Assembly (NCBI GenBank): GCA_017417465.1
Contig: JAFPZD010000033.1
Coordinates: forward strand, 1 to 58,697
From: Prevotella sp.
Lineage (GTDB): Bacteria > Bacteroidota > Bacteroidia > Bacteroidales > Bacteroidaceae
DNA: 58,697 bases
Reading direction: 5' to 3'
The notes under the pieces are model-generated. The model worked only from the letters and a program-made list of their open reading frames with translations, did not search any database and had not been told where the DNA came from. The position numbers and the translations under genes were made by a program. Shown piece after piece: positions 21,472 through 52,144 of this stretch. Every line of letters starts with the position of its first letter. Position 1 is the first letter of the stretch.

Positions 21472-21711
21472 TAGTATCTCCGGGTGTACTCCGAGTAACG
21501 CCGCGCGTAGTCCGAGTAACGCCGCGCGTACTGTTAGTAACTCCGGCGAAACTATTCGTTATCTCGGTAAAAGTATCGGTTTCCTCAGTAGGAAACCGAT
21601 GGTTTCTTACGTAGGAAACCGATGGTTTCTTACGTAGGAAACCGATGGTTTCTTCCGAGGAAACCGATGGCTTCTTCCGAGGAAACCAGCGGCTTTTTCC
21701 GAGGAAGCCAT
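21472..21711. repeat. Eleven-unit hairpin array, 21-23 bp period
   Basis: Units start at 21473, 21494, 21515, 21536, 21558, 21579, 21602, 21625, 21648, 21670 and 21692. The early units are AGTAACGCCGCGCGTACT-like (stem AGTA-CGC/GCG-TACT with one bulged A and a three-base loop); the later ones are GGAAACCGATGGTTTC-like (stem GAAACC/GGTTTC around GAT). The array therefore changes stem sequence along its length while keeping the hairpin. It lies between convergent rny and the small gene at 21852. The rest of the 650-bp gap has a hairpin GGTGAATG/CATTCACC (21410-21443) and nothing else I can name. Confidence 0.8.
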
Positions 21712-37530: not shown

Positions 37531-37553
37531 AAGGTCTCAGGGATGGAAAATTT

Positions 37554-37773
37554 GAGTCTGCTCGGCGCGGACTGTGAGTCTGCTCGGCGCGGACTGGAAG
37601 CCTGCTCGGCGCAGACCGGGAGACTTCTCGGCGCAGACCGGGAGACTTCTCGGAGAAGACTGTGAGACTTCTCGGAGAAGACTGTGAGACTTCTCGGAGA
37701 GGACCGTGAGACTTCTATGAGAAGACTGTGAGACTTCTCGGAGCAGACTGGGAGACTTCTCGGAGAGATATTT
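37554..37773. repeat. Ten-unit hairpin array, exact 22-bp period
   Basis: Units start at 37554 and every 22 bases to 37752; all are exactly 22 long and the last is degraded. Early units are AGTCTGC-TCGGC-GCGGACT (7-bp stem with one T-G pair); later units are GACTTCT-CGG-AGAAGACT (stem CTTCT/AGAAG). Both sides of the stem change together, so base pairing rather than sequence is kept. The array lies between the convergent genes at 35866 and 37800. Confidence 0.85.
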
Positions 37774-37799
37774 TAAAGATGTAGCGAACGAGCGTCCGT

Positions 37800-47325: not shown

Positions 47326-47472
47326 TTCTTCATACCCCATAGTGACAAGATTTTCAGTACGATGCAAACGATGTTGACAAGCAATTCAGTTTAACCCGGT
47401 GAAAACTGTCAAGTGAAATCATGAAAAGTCAAGGAAAAGGCACATAGGAATAGATTCTCTACGTGCGAATGT

Positions 47473-47585
47473 TGGTTCCTGCGCAGGAAACCGATGGTTT
47501 CCTCCATAGGAAACCGATGGTTTCCACGGTAGGAAACCGATGGTTTCCTGTAAGGCTCCCATTAGGAAACCGATGGTTTCTTTCA
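47473..47585. repeat. Hairpin array of AGGAAACC-GAT-GGTTTCCT units
   Basis: Units begin at 47485, 47508, 47531 and 47564, after a half unit at 47474. The perfect form has an 8-bp stem and a three-base loop. The unit is the same as in the later half of the array at 21472-21711, 26 kb away. It lies within the 1,052-bp gap 47207-48258 between tkt and the sigma-factor gene. Confidence 0.85.
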
Positions 47586-47734
47586 TTCTTGTTCTGGCGG
47601 TTGGGAAAGACACACGTCACATTTCGCCCCCTGTAGAGACGTCACAGTGTGGCATTTCTACTGTAGCGTTTCTACCGCCCGCAGTACACGTTTTCGGTGA
47701 TTTTACACCTAATATTTGTTAAATTCCGAAATTT

Positions 47735-47816: not shown

Positions 47817-47929
47817 ACTTTTTGAAAAAACTAATGATGTATAGCAGAGCTGGCTATACAAGTTGGCGCAAGAGGCTTCCATTCATCGTCTTGTTCCAAC
47901 AGCTCTTCTAACGACCTCTTACTACATAA

Positions 47930-47965
47930 GTTCTTCGCAGAGCGAAGCGGCAAAGCCGAGCGGAG
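47930..47965 (-). repeat. 36-bp dispersed element, second copy
   Basis: Exact reverse complement of 2868-2903, followed here by CAAATGCGAAACTTGAATT, a sequence also seen in part at 38458. Confidence 0.7.
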
Positions 47966-48258: not shown

Positions 48259-48762
48259 ATGACACGAAAAGAAGTTGAAAATCTGTTCAAGACGCACTAC
48301 ACGCAGATGTATCATCTGGCACTCACACTGCTCTTCGACGAAGCCGAGAGCAAGGATGTGGTGAGCGAGGTGTTCGCCAACCTGCTCAGTGGCAAGACGA
48401 TGATGCGAGCAGACAATGCACGAGCGTTTCTGTTGGCGAGTGTGCATCATCGCTGTCTGAATGTGTTGCGGCACAAACAGGTGCAAGAACGCTTTGCACG
48501 TCTACTCACAGAGAACAGCGATAAACTTGTCAACGGCGATACGGCGGAAGATAAAATGCAGATGGAAGAACTGATGCGCTATGTGCGGAACAACCTGTCA
48601 CCGATGGAGCAGAATACCTTCCGAATGCGCTACCTAAAGGAGATGACCTGCCAGGAGGTGGCTGAAGCGCTGAACGTAAGCCGCCAGACCGTTCACACCT
48701 ACCTGAAGCAGGCTGTGGAGAAAATCAGAAAGTATTTCAATTCAAACTCAAAAGCAATATGA
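48259..48762 (+). CDS. ECF-type RNA polymerase sigma factor
   Basis: The 167-residue protein has region 2 (about 8-75; FKTHYTQMYHLALTLLFDEA, DVVSEVFANLL) and region 4 (about 105-158; LSPMEQNTFRMRYLKEMTCQ, VAEALNVSRQTVHTYLKQAV), and no region 3, as in ECF factors. In Bacteroidetes such factors sit beside a FecR-like anti-sigma and an outer-membrane receptor, exactly as here. The stop overlaps the next start as ATGA. Confidence 0.93.
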   Translation: MTRKEVENLFKTHYTQMYHLALTLLFDEAESKDVVSEVFANLLSGKTMMRADNARAFLLASVHHRCLNVLRHKQVQERFARLLTENSDKLVNGDTAEDKMQMEELMRYVRNNLSPMEQNTFRMRYLKEMTCQEVAEALNVSRQTVHTYLKQAVEKIRKYFNSNSKAI

Positions 48763-49523
48763 TGACCGATGAAAAGCGTATAGAGTGGCTCCTGGAATTA
48801 CAAAACCACCCTGAGCAACTGACCGACGAACAGTTGCAGCAGATACTCGCCGATGACGAGATGCACCGGCTTGTAGAGCAACTTGGCTTCGCTAAGCGTG
48901 CCTTTAAGCACAATGAACTGACGAACGAGCGAGAGCAGAGTGATGCTTGCATCGACTCTGCCGAGCGAGGAGGAAGAAGGCGAAGCCAACTTATAAACGA
49001 CACGCCTGATGTGGATGCCGAATGGGAGAAATTTGCAACTTGTCATGCCGAGCAACTGGATGCCCTTGACGAAGAAAAGCCCAAGTGGCATTCTTTATTC
49101 TTTACTCTTCATTCTTCATTTCAAAAGATTGCGGCATTCTTCATAGGTGTGCTCTTGGCTTCGGGCATTGCCTATGCTGCCATTCAAATTGTGCGCAATA
49201 TCAACACTTCTAAACCTCAACCGCCTACTACGGAGCAAACGACCGACATCGAGCCAGTCACTTCCTTGCCCGCAGATACGATTAAGGCAGACACCATCAC
49301 GTCTGAGTCTTACGTTTTCAACAATGTGCCACTCGACTCCATGCTCGCGGCCATTGCTGCTGCCCACGGGGTCGACGTTGAATTTGAGAATGAAGCTGCT
49401 CGCGGGCTTCGTTTCCATTTCGTATGGAAGCGTGAAGACAGCCTCGCTCGCGTCGTAGAGAAGTTGAACACTTTCGAAGCCGTGAACATCGGTATGGAAG
49501 ACAAAAAGCTGTTGGTAAGATGA
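48759..49523 (+). CDS. FecR-like anti-sigma factor with a repeat-derived insert
   Basis: The 254-residue membrane protein has a cytosolic N-terminal part (MTDEKRIEWLLELQNHPEQL, sigma-binding region), one membrane helix (about 122-144; IAAFFIGVLLASGIAYAAIQ) and a C-terminal domain (about 185-254; NNVPLDSMLAAIAAAHGVDV) like the end domain of Bacteroidetes FecR proteins. The usual FecR beta domain between them is missing, so the protein is short. Residues about 53-77 (NEREQSDACIDSAERGGRRR) are encoded by a palindromic repeat shared with the next gene, and residues about 111-121 (SLFFTLHSSFQ) by a TTCTTTA-type low-complexity repeat. Both gene ends overlap their neighbours by 4 bases. Confidence 0.83.
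   Translation: MMTDEKRIEWLLELQNHPEQLTDEQLQQILADDEMHRLVEQLGFAKRAFKHNELTNEREQSDACIDSAERGGRRRSQLINDTPDVDAEWEKFATCHAEQLDALDEEKPKWHSLFFTLHSSFQKIAAFFIGVLLASGIAYAAIQIVRNINTSKPQPPTTEQTTDIEPVTSLPADTIKADTITSESYVFNNVPLDSMLAAIAAAHGVDVEFENEAARGLRFHFVWKREDSLARVVEKLNTFEAVNIGMEDKKLLVR
48918..48988 (+). repeat. In-frame palindromic element, copy A
   Basis: About 71 bases, shared with 49664-49735 at about three quarters identity. The core 48935-48961 is GCAGAGTGATGC-TT-GCATCGACTCTGC, a 12-bp stem with one bulged base. The reading frame gives QSDACIDSAERGG. Confidence 0.75.
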
Positions 49524-52144
49524 GACACACGTTATATACTTTAACACTCATGGCCTGCATCCTCTGCATGCCACTTGACACCTTCGCACAGCGTGTCAGC
49601 CACATATATAATAATGTGTCGCTCAGCGAAGCCCTGCTTCAGCTGAACAACGAGCAGAAGGAAATGACAAACGAGCAAGCGCAGAGTGATGCTCGCGTCA
49701 ACTCTGCCGAGCGAGGAGGAGTTCGACGTAGTCAATACGTCATCAACTTTCTCTACAATGAGTTGGAGGACTTCCGCATCACCACCACCGTCAGCCGCAA
49801 GTCGCTACCCGATGCCATCCAACAGATGATAGGCTTCTATCCCGTCCGTATGACCGTGAAGCCCGACGACCACGAGATCTATGTGGAGTGTACCAATAAG
49901 ACTGACCGCCGTCTGACGGGTACCATTATCGACGAACAGAGCCAGCCCGTTGCGTATGCCAACGTCGCCATCCTCAATCCCACTGACTCCACGCTGCTTA
50001 GTGGCGGAGTATCGAATGAAAGCGGGTATTTCGCCATTCCCTACGAAACTCCTCCCTCAATCGGGGGAGGCCGGGAGGGAGCCGTCCTCGCCCGCATCTC
50101 CTACGTCGGCTATAAGACCATCTATCGGCTTTGTAACCAGTCTGAACTTGGTACAATACGGATGCAGCCAGAAACACAAACATTGAAAGGCGTAACCGTG
50201 AAAGGTGAGCGAATCGTCTCGACAACGGAAAACGGGCACCTTGTTTACAACATGCCGATGTTGCTGCAGGTCTATCCTGCCGACGATGCCTACGAGGCCC
50301 TGACACGCATCCCCGGCGTCATTGACATGAACGGCAGCCTCTTGTTCTGCGGTCAGCAGGTGACGCTTATCATCAATGGCAAGGCGACAACGCTCGATGC
50401 CGGCAAGGTGGTAGAACGGCTGAAGGCTATGCCTGCCGACATGCTGGCCAAGGCCGAGGTGATGCCGTCGGCTCCTGCCAAATACCATGTGCGAGGCATG
50501 GCCATCAACATCGTGACAAAGGACTTTACGGGCACCAACCAGCTCTCAGGGCAAAACAAGTGGGTATGGCGGCAGAGCAGATACGGCACGGGGTACTGGG
50601 CACCCAGCATCATCTTTAACCAGGGCAAGCTGAGCATGGATTTGTCGTATGGCTTCACCAAAGGCAGTGGCTACGGGCAGGTGGAGCACGAGGCTAACCA
50701 TCCGCTGGGCGACCAGCGCAAGGCCTACAGCGACGAGACCCACAACCGCAGCGACGGCTTCGACCACGAATACCGCATCGGCATGGACTATACCTTCAGC
50801 GACGACCACCGCCTTAGTCTGGCTTATACTGGCCAGTGGAGCAGCACACGCTCCACCAACACCACCACGGGCACCGCACTATCCACGCAGCACTCCCACG
50901 AGCACGACTATCTGCACAACATCGACGCCAGCTACGACACGCCTTTCGGCTTAGAACTCAGCGCCTCCTACACCAACTATCAGAATCCACGTACGCAAAA
51001 CCTCGACGGCGAGATGTTCAACACCCGGCGCGACCTCTTCGTAGACAGCCGCCAGAAGGTCAGCAAGTGGCTCTTCACCGCCGACCAGACACACGCGCTG
51101 AGGAATGGCTGGGAGCTGAACTATGGTAGCAAGGCACAGTTCACGAACAATAACAGCTATCAGACTACGCTTGACACGGAAGGAAGGGCGATTCCCGACG
51201 CTTCGACTCACGTCGACTACGACGAGCGCATCGTCAACGCCTACGCAGGTTTCAGCAAGCAGATGGGCGAAGCGCTGAGCTTCGACGCCTCGCTGACCAT
51301 GGAGCAGTATCACGCCACGAAGTGGGACGAGTGGCGCGTCTACCCTCAGTTCAACGCCATGTGGAACGTCAACGCGAAGAACATGCTCAACCTCTCGTTC
51401 AGTAGCGAGGCCGTCTATCCCAGTTACTGGAGCACCATGAGCAGCATCTACTACGCCTCGGCCTACAGCGAGATATGGGGCAATCCTGACCTCAAGCCCA
51501 TGTCGAAATACGACATTAACCTGATGTGGCAACTCAATCGCAAGTATACTTTCACGGCCTTTGCACAATTTGAGCCCGACTATTTTGTGCAAATGGCTTA
51601 TCAGCCCTCCGACCGCATGGCAGTTGTCATGAAGGAAACCAATTTCGACTACTCCAACTACTTCGGCCTGCAAGCTTCTGCGCAGTTCAGCGTTGGCAGT
51701 TGGCTTAACGGCAATGTCATGGCCACCGCCCTTTACCGCCACGACAAGACCAATTTCTTCGACCTGCCCATCGACCGCACCTGCCTCTCTGGCATACTGG
51801 GTGGCATGGCCGTAGCCAAGTTGTCGCAGAAGCACAACATCCAGTTCATCCTCAATCCGTTCTTCCAGTCAAAGGCCATCCAAGGTCTTTACGACATTGA
51901 CCCCTTCCTGCGGCTCAATGCCACGCTCCGCTACACCTCCAAAGCTGGCAAGTGGAGCCTTGTGGCCAAAGGCGAGAATATTCTGAATACCCATATTGAC
52001 ACCCACTCCACGATAGCCAATCAGAACTACAGCATGTGCGTTTGGATTCCCTATGCGAACTATTCGCTCACCGCCATCTACCGCATCGGTAACTTCAAGG
52101 AGAAGCAGAAGAAGGCTGTGGATACCTCGCGCATGGGGTATTGA
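49520..52144 (+). CDS. Outer-membrane beta-barrel receptor with repeat-derived inserts
   Basis: The 874-residue protein has a signal peptide (1-23, DTFAQR), an N-terminal STN-like part (HIYNNVSLSEALLQLNNEQK, then INFLYNELEDFRITTTVSRK), a carboxypeptidase-like domain (TGTIIDEQSQPVAYANVAIL), a plug (VKGERIVSTTENGHLVYNMP, AEVMPSAPAKYHVRGMAINI) and an outer-membrane barrel of the OMP_b-brl_3 type. It should be under control of the sigma and anti-sigma genes it overlaps. Residues about 49-72 (NEQAQSDARVNSAERGGVRR) are encoded by palindrome copy B and split the STN-like part. Residues about 177-187 (PPSIGGGREGA) come from a GGGGGAGGCCGGGAGGGA-type terminator element. The frame is intact throughout. 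Confidence 0.88.
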   Translation: MRHTLYTLTLMACILCMPLDTFAQRVSHIYNNVSLSEALLQLNNEQKEMTNEQAQSDARVNSAERGGVRRSQYVINFLYNELEDFRITTTVSRKSLPDAIQQMIGFYPVRMTVKPDDHEIYVECTNKTDRRLTGTIIDEQSQPVAYANVAILNPTDSTLLSGGVSNESGYFAIPYETPPSIGGGREGAVLARISYVGYKTIYRLCNQSELGTIRMQPETQTLKGVTVKGERIVSTTENGHLVYNMPMLLQVYPADDAYEALTRIPGVIDMNGSLLFCGQQVTLIINGKATTLDAGKVVERLKAMPADMLAKAEVMPSAPAKYHVRGMAINIVTKDFTGTNQLSGQNKWVWRQSRYGTGYWAPSIIFNQGKLSMDLSYGFTKGSGYGQVEHEANHPLGDQRKAYSDETHNRSDGFDHEYRIGMDYTFSDDHRLSLAYTGQWSSTRSTNTTTGTALSTQHSHEHDYLHNIDASYDTPFGLELSASYTNYQNPRTQNLDGEMFNTRRDLFVDSRQKVSKWLFTADQTHALRNGWELNYGSKAQFTNNNSYQTTLDTEGRAIPDASTHVDYDERIVNAYAGFSKQMGEALSFDASLTMEQYHATKWDEWRVYPQFNAMWNVNAKNMLNLSFSSEAVYPSYWSTMSSIYYASAYSEIWGNPDLKPMSKYDINLMWQLNRKYTFTAFAQFEPDYFVQMAYQPSDRMAVVMKETNFDYSNYFGLQASAQFSVGSWLNGNVMATALYRHDKTNFFDLPIDRTCLSGILGGMAVAKLSQKHNIQFILNPFFQSKAIQGLYDIDPFLRLNATLRYTSKAGKWSLVAKGENILNTHIDTHSTIANQNYSMCVWIPYANYSLTAIYRIGNFKEKQKKAVDTSRMGY
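49664..49735 (+). repeat. In-frame palindromic element, copy B
   Basis: The core 49681-49707 is GCAGAGTGATGC-TC-GCGTCAACTCTGC; the stem is kept with one G-T pair where copy A has A-T. It is read in the same frame as copy A and gives QSDARVNSAERGG. Confidence 0.75.
50049..50080 (-). repeat. Terminator-like element inside the receptor gene
   Basis: In reverse complement it reads TCCCTCCCGGCCTCCCCC, then GATTGAGGGAGGAG, which matches the intergenic copy at 37217-37247. It is translated in frame as PPSIGGGREGA. Confidence 0.7.

Follow-up and report, generated by a model that had tools for sequence, protein, structure and literature searches.

Rickettsia, Wolbachia and the archaeon M. jannaschii are described as carrying selfish palindromic sequences inserted in frame into genes (available part of PMC2996958). 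At least one host protein carrying a Rickettsia palindromic element (RPE) is known to stay active (available parts of PMC2229807 and PMC10969869). RPEs and their Wolbachia relatives lie both between genes and in frame within unrelated protein genes, and reviews describe RPEs as 105–146 bp long, with long stem-loops and terminal inverted repeats. The stretch of DNA considered here (the window) is a 58,697-nt contig of Prevotella sp. (JAFPZD010000033.1, assembly GCA_017417465.1), in which two adjacent genes of one operon each contain a palindromic segment. Very probably (about 87%), both are copies of one short mobile palindromic element of Prevotella and other Bacteroidales, which as a rule measures 75 or 72 bp. 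This element shares with RPEs both the intergenic and the in-frame location, but it is usually 72–75 bp long, has small helices and a [G/C]AA target, and lives in Bacteroidales hosts. Judged by analogy, it is RPE-like in behaviour, although smaller and built differently, the likeness being one of behaviour and description rather than of compared sequences. Literature searches found no paper describing the element in Prevotella or Bacteroidota, and the main text of PMC2996958 contains no mention of 'prevotella' or 'bacteroid'.

Both copies lie on the forward strand, at 48918..48989 (copy 1) and 49664..49735 (copy 2), where the original prediction had placed them. Comparison with empty orthologues gives each insert a length of 72 nt, and a GAA target stands directly to its left (48915..48917 and 49661..49663, forward strand). 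Copy 1 is read as LTNEREQSDACIDSAERGGRRRSQ and copy 2 as MTNEQAQSDARVNSAERGGVRRSQ, in the shared frame QSDA[C/R][I/V][D/N]SAERGG that had already been recognised. The two were also rightly said to be much alike, but the figure of about 75% was too low, as 58 of 72 bases (81%) are identical. A 38-base pattern fitting both copies had 0.00 expected matches in 100 shuffles of the window. The stem reported as kept in both copies was found again in hairpin 1 (48935..48961 and 49681..49707, forward strand): it consists of 11 pairs, a one-base bulge and a C-G pair closing a two-base loop, one of the pairs in copy 2 being a T-G wobble. It is followed on the same strand by hairpin 2, which reads GGC-GAA-GCC in copy 1 (48979..48987) and GAC-GTA-GTC in copy 2 (49725..49733). 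The operon, also on the forward strand, comprises a sigma factor gene (48259..48762), of the extracytoplasmic function (ECF) type by eye, an anti-sigma factor gene (48759..49523) with a C-terminal FecR_C match, and an outer-membrane receptor-like gene (49520..52144) with a CarboxypepD_reg-like region, the match to which is below Pfam's cut-off. As predicted, the insert in the anti-sigma protein has the N-terminal part on one side and a likely membrane helix, positioned by eye, on the other. The receptor insert does directly precede YVINFLYNELEDF, but the description of this region as 'STN-like' is unproven, because at E ≤ 0.001 Pfam did not report an STN domain. AlphaFold models of the anti-sigma protein and of a receptor fragment (mean predicted local distance difference test scores of 60 and 44, respectively) were too weak for placement of the inserts and were not used.

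The presence and absence of the element at orthologous sites demonstrate that it has moved. Orthologous sigma/anti-sigma/receptor operons display filled and empty versions of five sites across relatives. The sigma-start site (48273/48274) is empty in the window and in other genomes, and filled with the same element in genomes G184, G346, G079 and G009. Anti-sigma site A is filled in the window genome and in G127, whereas site B, after codon 16 (48806..48807), holds a copy in G350 and G285 but none in the window. Among the genomes compared, the receptor site is filled in the window genome only, and a site in the interior of the sigma factor gene holds a 75-nt copy at locus L155 and is empty in the ten relatives shown. 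Two further, degenerate anti-sigma copies gave weak matches (E = 0.0017 for L083, 0.011 for L078 and 0.012 for L079) to R1, a covariance model built on 64 distinct cores, the E-values of which are rough; across relatives, the operon thus has five insertion sites that are clear and two that are probable. When receptor and anti-sigma orthologues were aligned, as had been proposed, most of them were found to lack the element. Near-identical copies at nine places in genome G037 point to recent spread.

The original prediction had offered gene conversion between neighbours as an alternative; together with local duplication, this would confine the copying to the two adjacent genes, and the element would not be mobile in general. 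The proximity and likeness of the window copies are in keeping with this, and both anti-sigma sites bear copies with the same GGCGAAGCC tail, such that short-range copying within the operon is conceivable. However, the copy in the receptor gene ends in another tail, the window copies are unlike in the 3' part, and presence and absence follow a separate pattern at every site. As a sole cause, gene conversion is refuted by the copies found in unrelated genes and genomes, with the site-specific patterns adding to this, and the explanation is highly improbable.

The proposed search of the core in Prevotella genomes revealed a dispersed structured repeat. Of 398 genomes of the genus, 49 contain a 32-base pattern with up to three mismatches allowed (reversed control, 0 in its rows). 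R1 matched in 168 of 200 sampled species of the genus Prevotella and in 30 of 247 genomes sampled across the order Bacteroidales, the window's own genome included. This genome contains 13 R1 matches at E ≤ 0.001; copy numbers per genome are lower bounds, with at most 30 candidates scored in each. An exact pattern scan of GTDB contigs yielded 26 stretches, in records titled Prevotella, Prevotellaceae and Bacteroidales. A position matrix with a cut-off of 18, for which no reversed sequence scored above 8, delivered 196 distinct copies from 284 loci. This pooled set is not a random sample: besides the original pattern hits, it contains model hits with the better scores and loci retrieved for other purposes.

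Many copies lie within genes, overwhelmingly in one reading frame. Codon scores in the flanks, used instead of gene calls, classed 46 of the 196 copies as having coding sequence in one frame on both sides; this test is strict and fails to register copies known to be genic, among them window copy 1 and those at the sigma start and at site B. Forty-two of the 46 are read in forward frame +0, three in +1 and one on the reverse strand, whereas 11.8 would be expected in frame +0 if all stop-free frames were equal. In two of the 42, stop codons within the element or next to it suggest the end of a gene or a decayed copy. The [G/C]AA target is itself unevenly distributed over codon phases in coding DNA (4021:1972:848), but after correction for target phase, and with sites of similar left flank collapsed, 29 of 32 sites of the main subfamily remain in +0, versus 15.3 expected (P ~1e-7). 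Insertion occurs at one codon phase in the 72-nt subfamily and at another in the 75-nt subfamily, yet both give the same peptide frame, so the phase of the target is not enough to account for the bias. For the 142 copies in which hairpin 2 can be recognised and AA stands at each end, the distance from AA to AA ranges from 69 to 79 nt, with 75 in 88 and 72 in 17. It is divisible by three in 32 of the 35 genic copies, versus 65 of 96 with no more than one coding flank (P = 0.006; 11 in-between copies were set apart). The insert usually adds 24–25 amino acids with the reading frame intact, and is tolerated within genes. Insertions in genes would mostly persist if their length is divisible by three and a hydrophilic, KREQSDARIDSAEREQARPKVK-like frame is read, in which case the host protein gains a tolerated loop of 24–25 residues; translated inserts would give EQSDACIDSAER-like junction peptides.

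The hosts are unrelated to one another. Nine of the ten proteins scanned match Pfam families, all of them different: the receptor (below Pfam's cut-off), the anti-sigma factor, an ABC ATPase, an FAD oxidase, an AAA-ATPase-like protein, an Eco57I methylase, an aldo-keto reductase, a glutamate synthase and a RecG-like protein. Element-like blocks in unrelated proteins, which the original prediction had proposed looking for, thus exist. A motif or linker domain conserved for the sake of its peptide, and not mobile as DNA, would fit the single frame of the genic copies, but hardly the rest of the evidence: most aligned orthologues lack the element, pairing in the DNA stem has been kept through changes that would alter the peptide, and at least 59 of the 183 copies with enough flank have no open reading frame (ORF) of 100 amino acids across them in any of the six frames, and so lie between genes. 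A domain carried by every orthologue, with no copies elsewhere, was looked for and did not occur. The intergenic copies and the covariation led to rejection of this explanation, which is scarcely credible. The filled and empty sites, the copies in unrelated genes and between genes, and the compensatory changes in the stem all speak instead for the mobile, frame-compatible palindrome originally proposed.

The element runs from the [G/C]AA^ target through an outer helix, a bulged hairpin and a mini-hairpin, mostly with a GNA triloop, to an AA^ end. The outer helix has 6 bp, there is a conserved internal loop, hairpin 1 is bulged with 11–12 bp, and the helices covary. In 64 cores, picked by a pattern that fixes part of the stem, hairpin 1 was paired in 97.3% of cells and both sides had changed in 8 of 12 pairs, a value matched in none of 500 shuffles. 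The outer arms (X6/X6') pair at 69.5% of positions, in 82 distinct combinations, versus 48.2% (maximum 53.3%) in shuffles; in the window's own 72-nt subfamily the outer helix was not seen in that register. Hairpin 2 has at least four pairs in 118 of 182 copies, versus 36–49 in shuffles and 55 in a downstream control. GNA triloops account for 107 of the 172 copies with any hairpin 2 stem of three, a stem length also reached by 103–116 copies in shuffled sequence. The consensus at the feet of hairpin 1 is AGCGAGA / CGAGCGTGA, and TGACG is confined to the outer end of the 72-nt subfamily. At the left end, 176 of 182 copies have A at -9 and 147 have A at -10; the base before this is G or C in 138. 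Inserts are clean, and the bases common to both ends are AA, with one or two more at some sites; this terminal AA may represent a 2-bp duplication.

Three covarying helices would also fit a structured regulatory RNA that has spread as a terminator, attenuator or mRNA stabiliser, and some copies are adjacent to genes (coding flank on the left only in 30 and on the right only in 20, a class that includes true in-gene copies). Palindromic candidate RNAs have been reported in Bacteroidetes (available part of PMC8040213), and one of them could be the Prevotella element seen as RNA. However, no Rfam match was found over the element in seven loci at E ≤ 1, and in-frame copies lie deep within ORFs. 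GNA triloops and C-TT-G loops are, moreover, stable in DNA, which also counts against an RNA function, and this explanation is improbable.

The element also occurs in head-to-tail arrays, some of them within ORFs (G000:C252:15661-15858, L046, L034, L188, L196 and L284), with a period of 75 in G000:C252, L046 and L034, 80 in G055:C19 and 73 in G032:C41. The right end (...TCAA) itself provides a [G/C]AA target, so such arrays may arise by insertion beside a resident copy. Many copies in G037, G055 and G105 (L177-L195) are located within short tandem repeats (AAGTGAA, TGGTCAA or TTGAACA, for example), each of which holds a [G/C]AA target.

To our knowledge, no mechanism of movement is known for the in-frame palindromes of Rickettsia, Wolbachia and M. 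jannaschii. For the Prevotella element, the structure, the fixed target and the clean insertion suggest recognition of a folded single strand; a trans-acting DNA enzyme would then move it, and movement as single-stranded DNA is inferred on these grounds. Insertion sequences of the IS200/IS605 kind have subterminal hairpins, a fixed left target and no target duplication; the element has hairpins and the [G/C]AA target, and its terminal AA could count as a duplication. It might be a repetitive extragenic palindromic (REP) sequence moved, as in IS200/IS605, through single-stranded DNA by a REP-associated tyrosine transposase (RAYT), the obvious candidate enzyme. The bulged hairpin, the short subterminal structures and the want of a clear target duplication beyond AA are consistent with this, and RAYT-like proteins with a YIHQNP motif exist in Prevotella. 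They resemble subclass 2.6 of PMC6006769, the flanking structures of which are called atypical in the available part of that source. Five of the 17 RAYT loci (L207, L210, L214, L219 and L220), however, are flanked on both sides by inverted GGGGACAG repeats of their own, which fit the GGGGWSAS motif of tyrosine transposases flanked by terminal inverted repeats (available part of PMC3733652).

Several observations weigh against a mobile element, and those on Y1 enzymes weigh against RAYTs in particular. Searches for Y1/RAYT and Y2 enzymes found no mobilising enzyme. A Y1_Tnp match was present in 15 of 26 high-copy genomes (at least 20 R1 matches) and in 12 of the 20 zero-copy genomes listed, out of 32 with no match, giving no association with copy number by Fisher test. 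R1 matched within only one of 20 Y1 loci, two of which are not of the RAYT type, and eight further Y1 loci had no convincing match (best E = 0.98). Three 99% complete genomes with 24–30 copies (G063, G094 and G178) had no match to Y1_Tnp, and none to one RAYT protein at E ≤ 0.001; of the 11 high-copy genomes without Y1_Tnp, three (G032, G157 and G181) matched this protein in part and the remaining eight not at all (positive control, G083). Y2_Tnp, of the IS91 type, matched in 0 of 27 genomes, its control being likewise silent (0 of 14), and the table of flanking bases gave no clear pairing for an IS91-like GAAC/CAAG target. The orientation relative to replication is suggestive only and not significant, with 24 of 36 copies opposite to fork movement (P = 0.065; five single-contig genomes, three with rounded lengths, origin at dnaA and terminus assumed opposite). 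Degenerate operon copies are read in +1 (L083) and +2 (L078 and L082), and that in L082 has no R1 match at E ≤ 0.5. The copies were drawn from pattern hits and from the higher-scoring hits of a model first built on window-like copies, and most of the genomes are drafts, G350 and G117 being single-contig and G184 consisting of two contigs. A RAYT as the mover of the element is, on balance, unlikely, although past use with later loss would fit.

REP sequences and REP doublets forming hairpins (REPINs) resemble the element in having a bulged hairpin of similar size, many copies and variable stems, but the element has no GTAG or CGTC tag at the foot of its hairpin and neither adjacency to nor genome association with RAYTs or other Y1 enzymes, and its in-frame genic copies are frequent. 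CGTC-tagged REPs are said to have no dedicated transposase, and R. conorii RPEs to end in CGTC (available part of PMC3733652); the 72-nt subfamily starts, in copies such as window copy 1, with TGACG (CGTCA on the other strand), whereas the main 75-nt subfamily lacks CGTC at its ends. Miniature inverted-repeat transposable elements are also small and non-autonomous and at times form in-frame fusions (available part of PMC10969869), but in the element a combination of terminal inverted repeats and target duplication is not clear, the two ends having in common AA, or AA and one or two further bases at some sites. Palindromic amphipathic repeat coding elements (PARCELs) share a palindromic coding unit of 75 nt or 25 residues, but are described in the available part of PMC2996958 as tandem amphipathic repeats within their ORFs, whereas the Prevotella element forms single inserts in housekeeping genes.

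Other repeats were noticed in the window and at other loci. The receptor gene contains a short palindromic in-frame insert (50049-50080; PPSIGGGREG, CCTCCC...GGGAGG) that is absent from six aligned orthologues, and HSLFFTLHSSF in the anti-sigma protein (49087-49122) is encoded by a simple repeat of the TTCATTCTTCATTT type, of which the window holds further similar copies; L083 has a similar stretch. An 11-residue in-frame mini-insert (RLRVGDGTSG / LRVGEQGSGM) is found in differing places in the anti-sigma genes of L074 and L079, the receptor of L077, and L268, once apparently within a copy of the main element. The anti-sigma proteins of L071, L029 and L083 carry an in-frame pair (TPNPSPKGEG ... 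PLSTGRGAGGE) after the likely membrane helix, which looks like the arms of another inverted repeat. A perfectly inverted 37-nt pair (2868-2904 and 47929-47965) with the motif GCAGAG...GCCGAGCG is possibly a relative of the element with another stem. Tandem repeats of 22 and 23 nt occur at 37531-37788, 21558-21696 and 47453-47602, the 23-nt unit GGAAACCGATGGTTTC being present at two distant places in the window.

The 75-nt element may, as a tentative proposal rated at less than even odds, be a coding-competent micro-transposon that moves as folded single-stranded DNA by means of an unrecognised enzyme and inserts at [G/C]AA; a stop-free, hydrophilic frame with a length in multiples of three would have been kept over a long period because genes are among its normal habitats, steadily adding 25-residue loops to Bacteroidales proteins. 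The element extends RPE-like in-frame palindromes to a major genus of the gut and rumen. Some Prevotella hosts can be grown, and in so large a genus, with hundreds of sequenced species, gain, loss, target choice, folding and selection on frame can be measured by comparison. It also shows one way in which short foreign peptides have repeatedly entered conserved proteins, including glutamate synthase, aldo-keto reductase, an ABC transporter ATPase, and sigma and anti-sigma factors.

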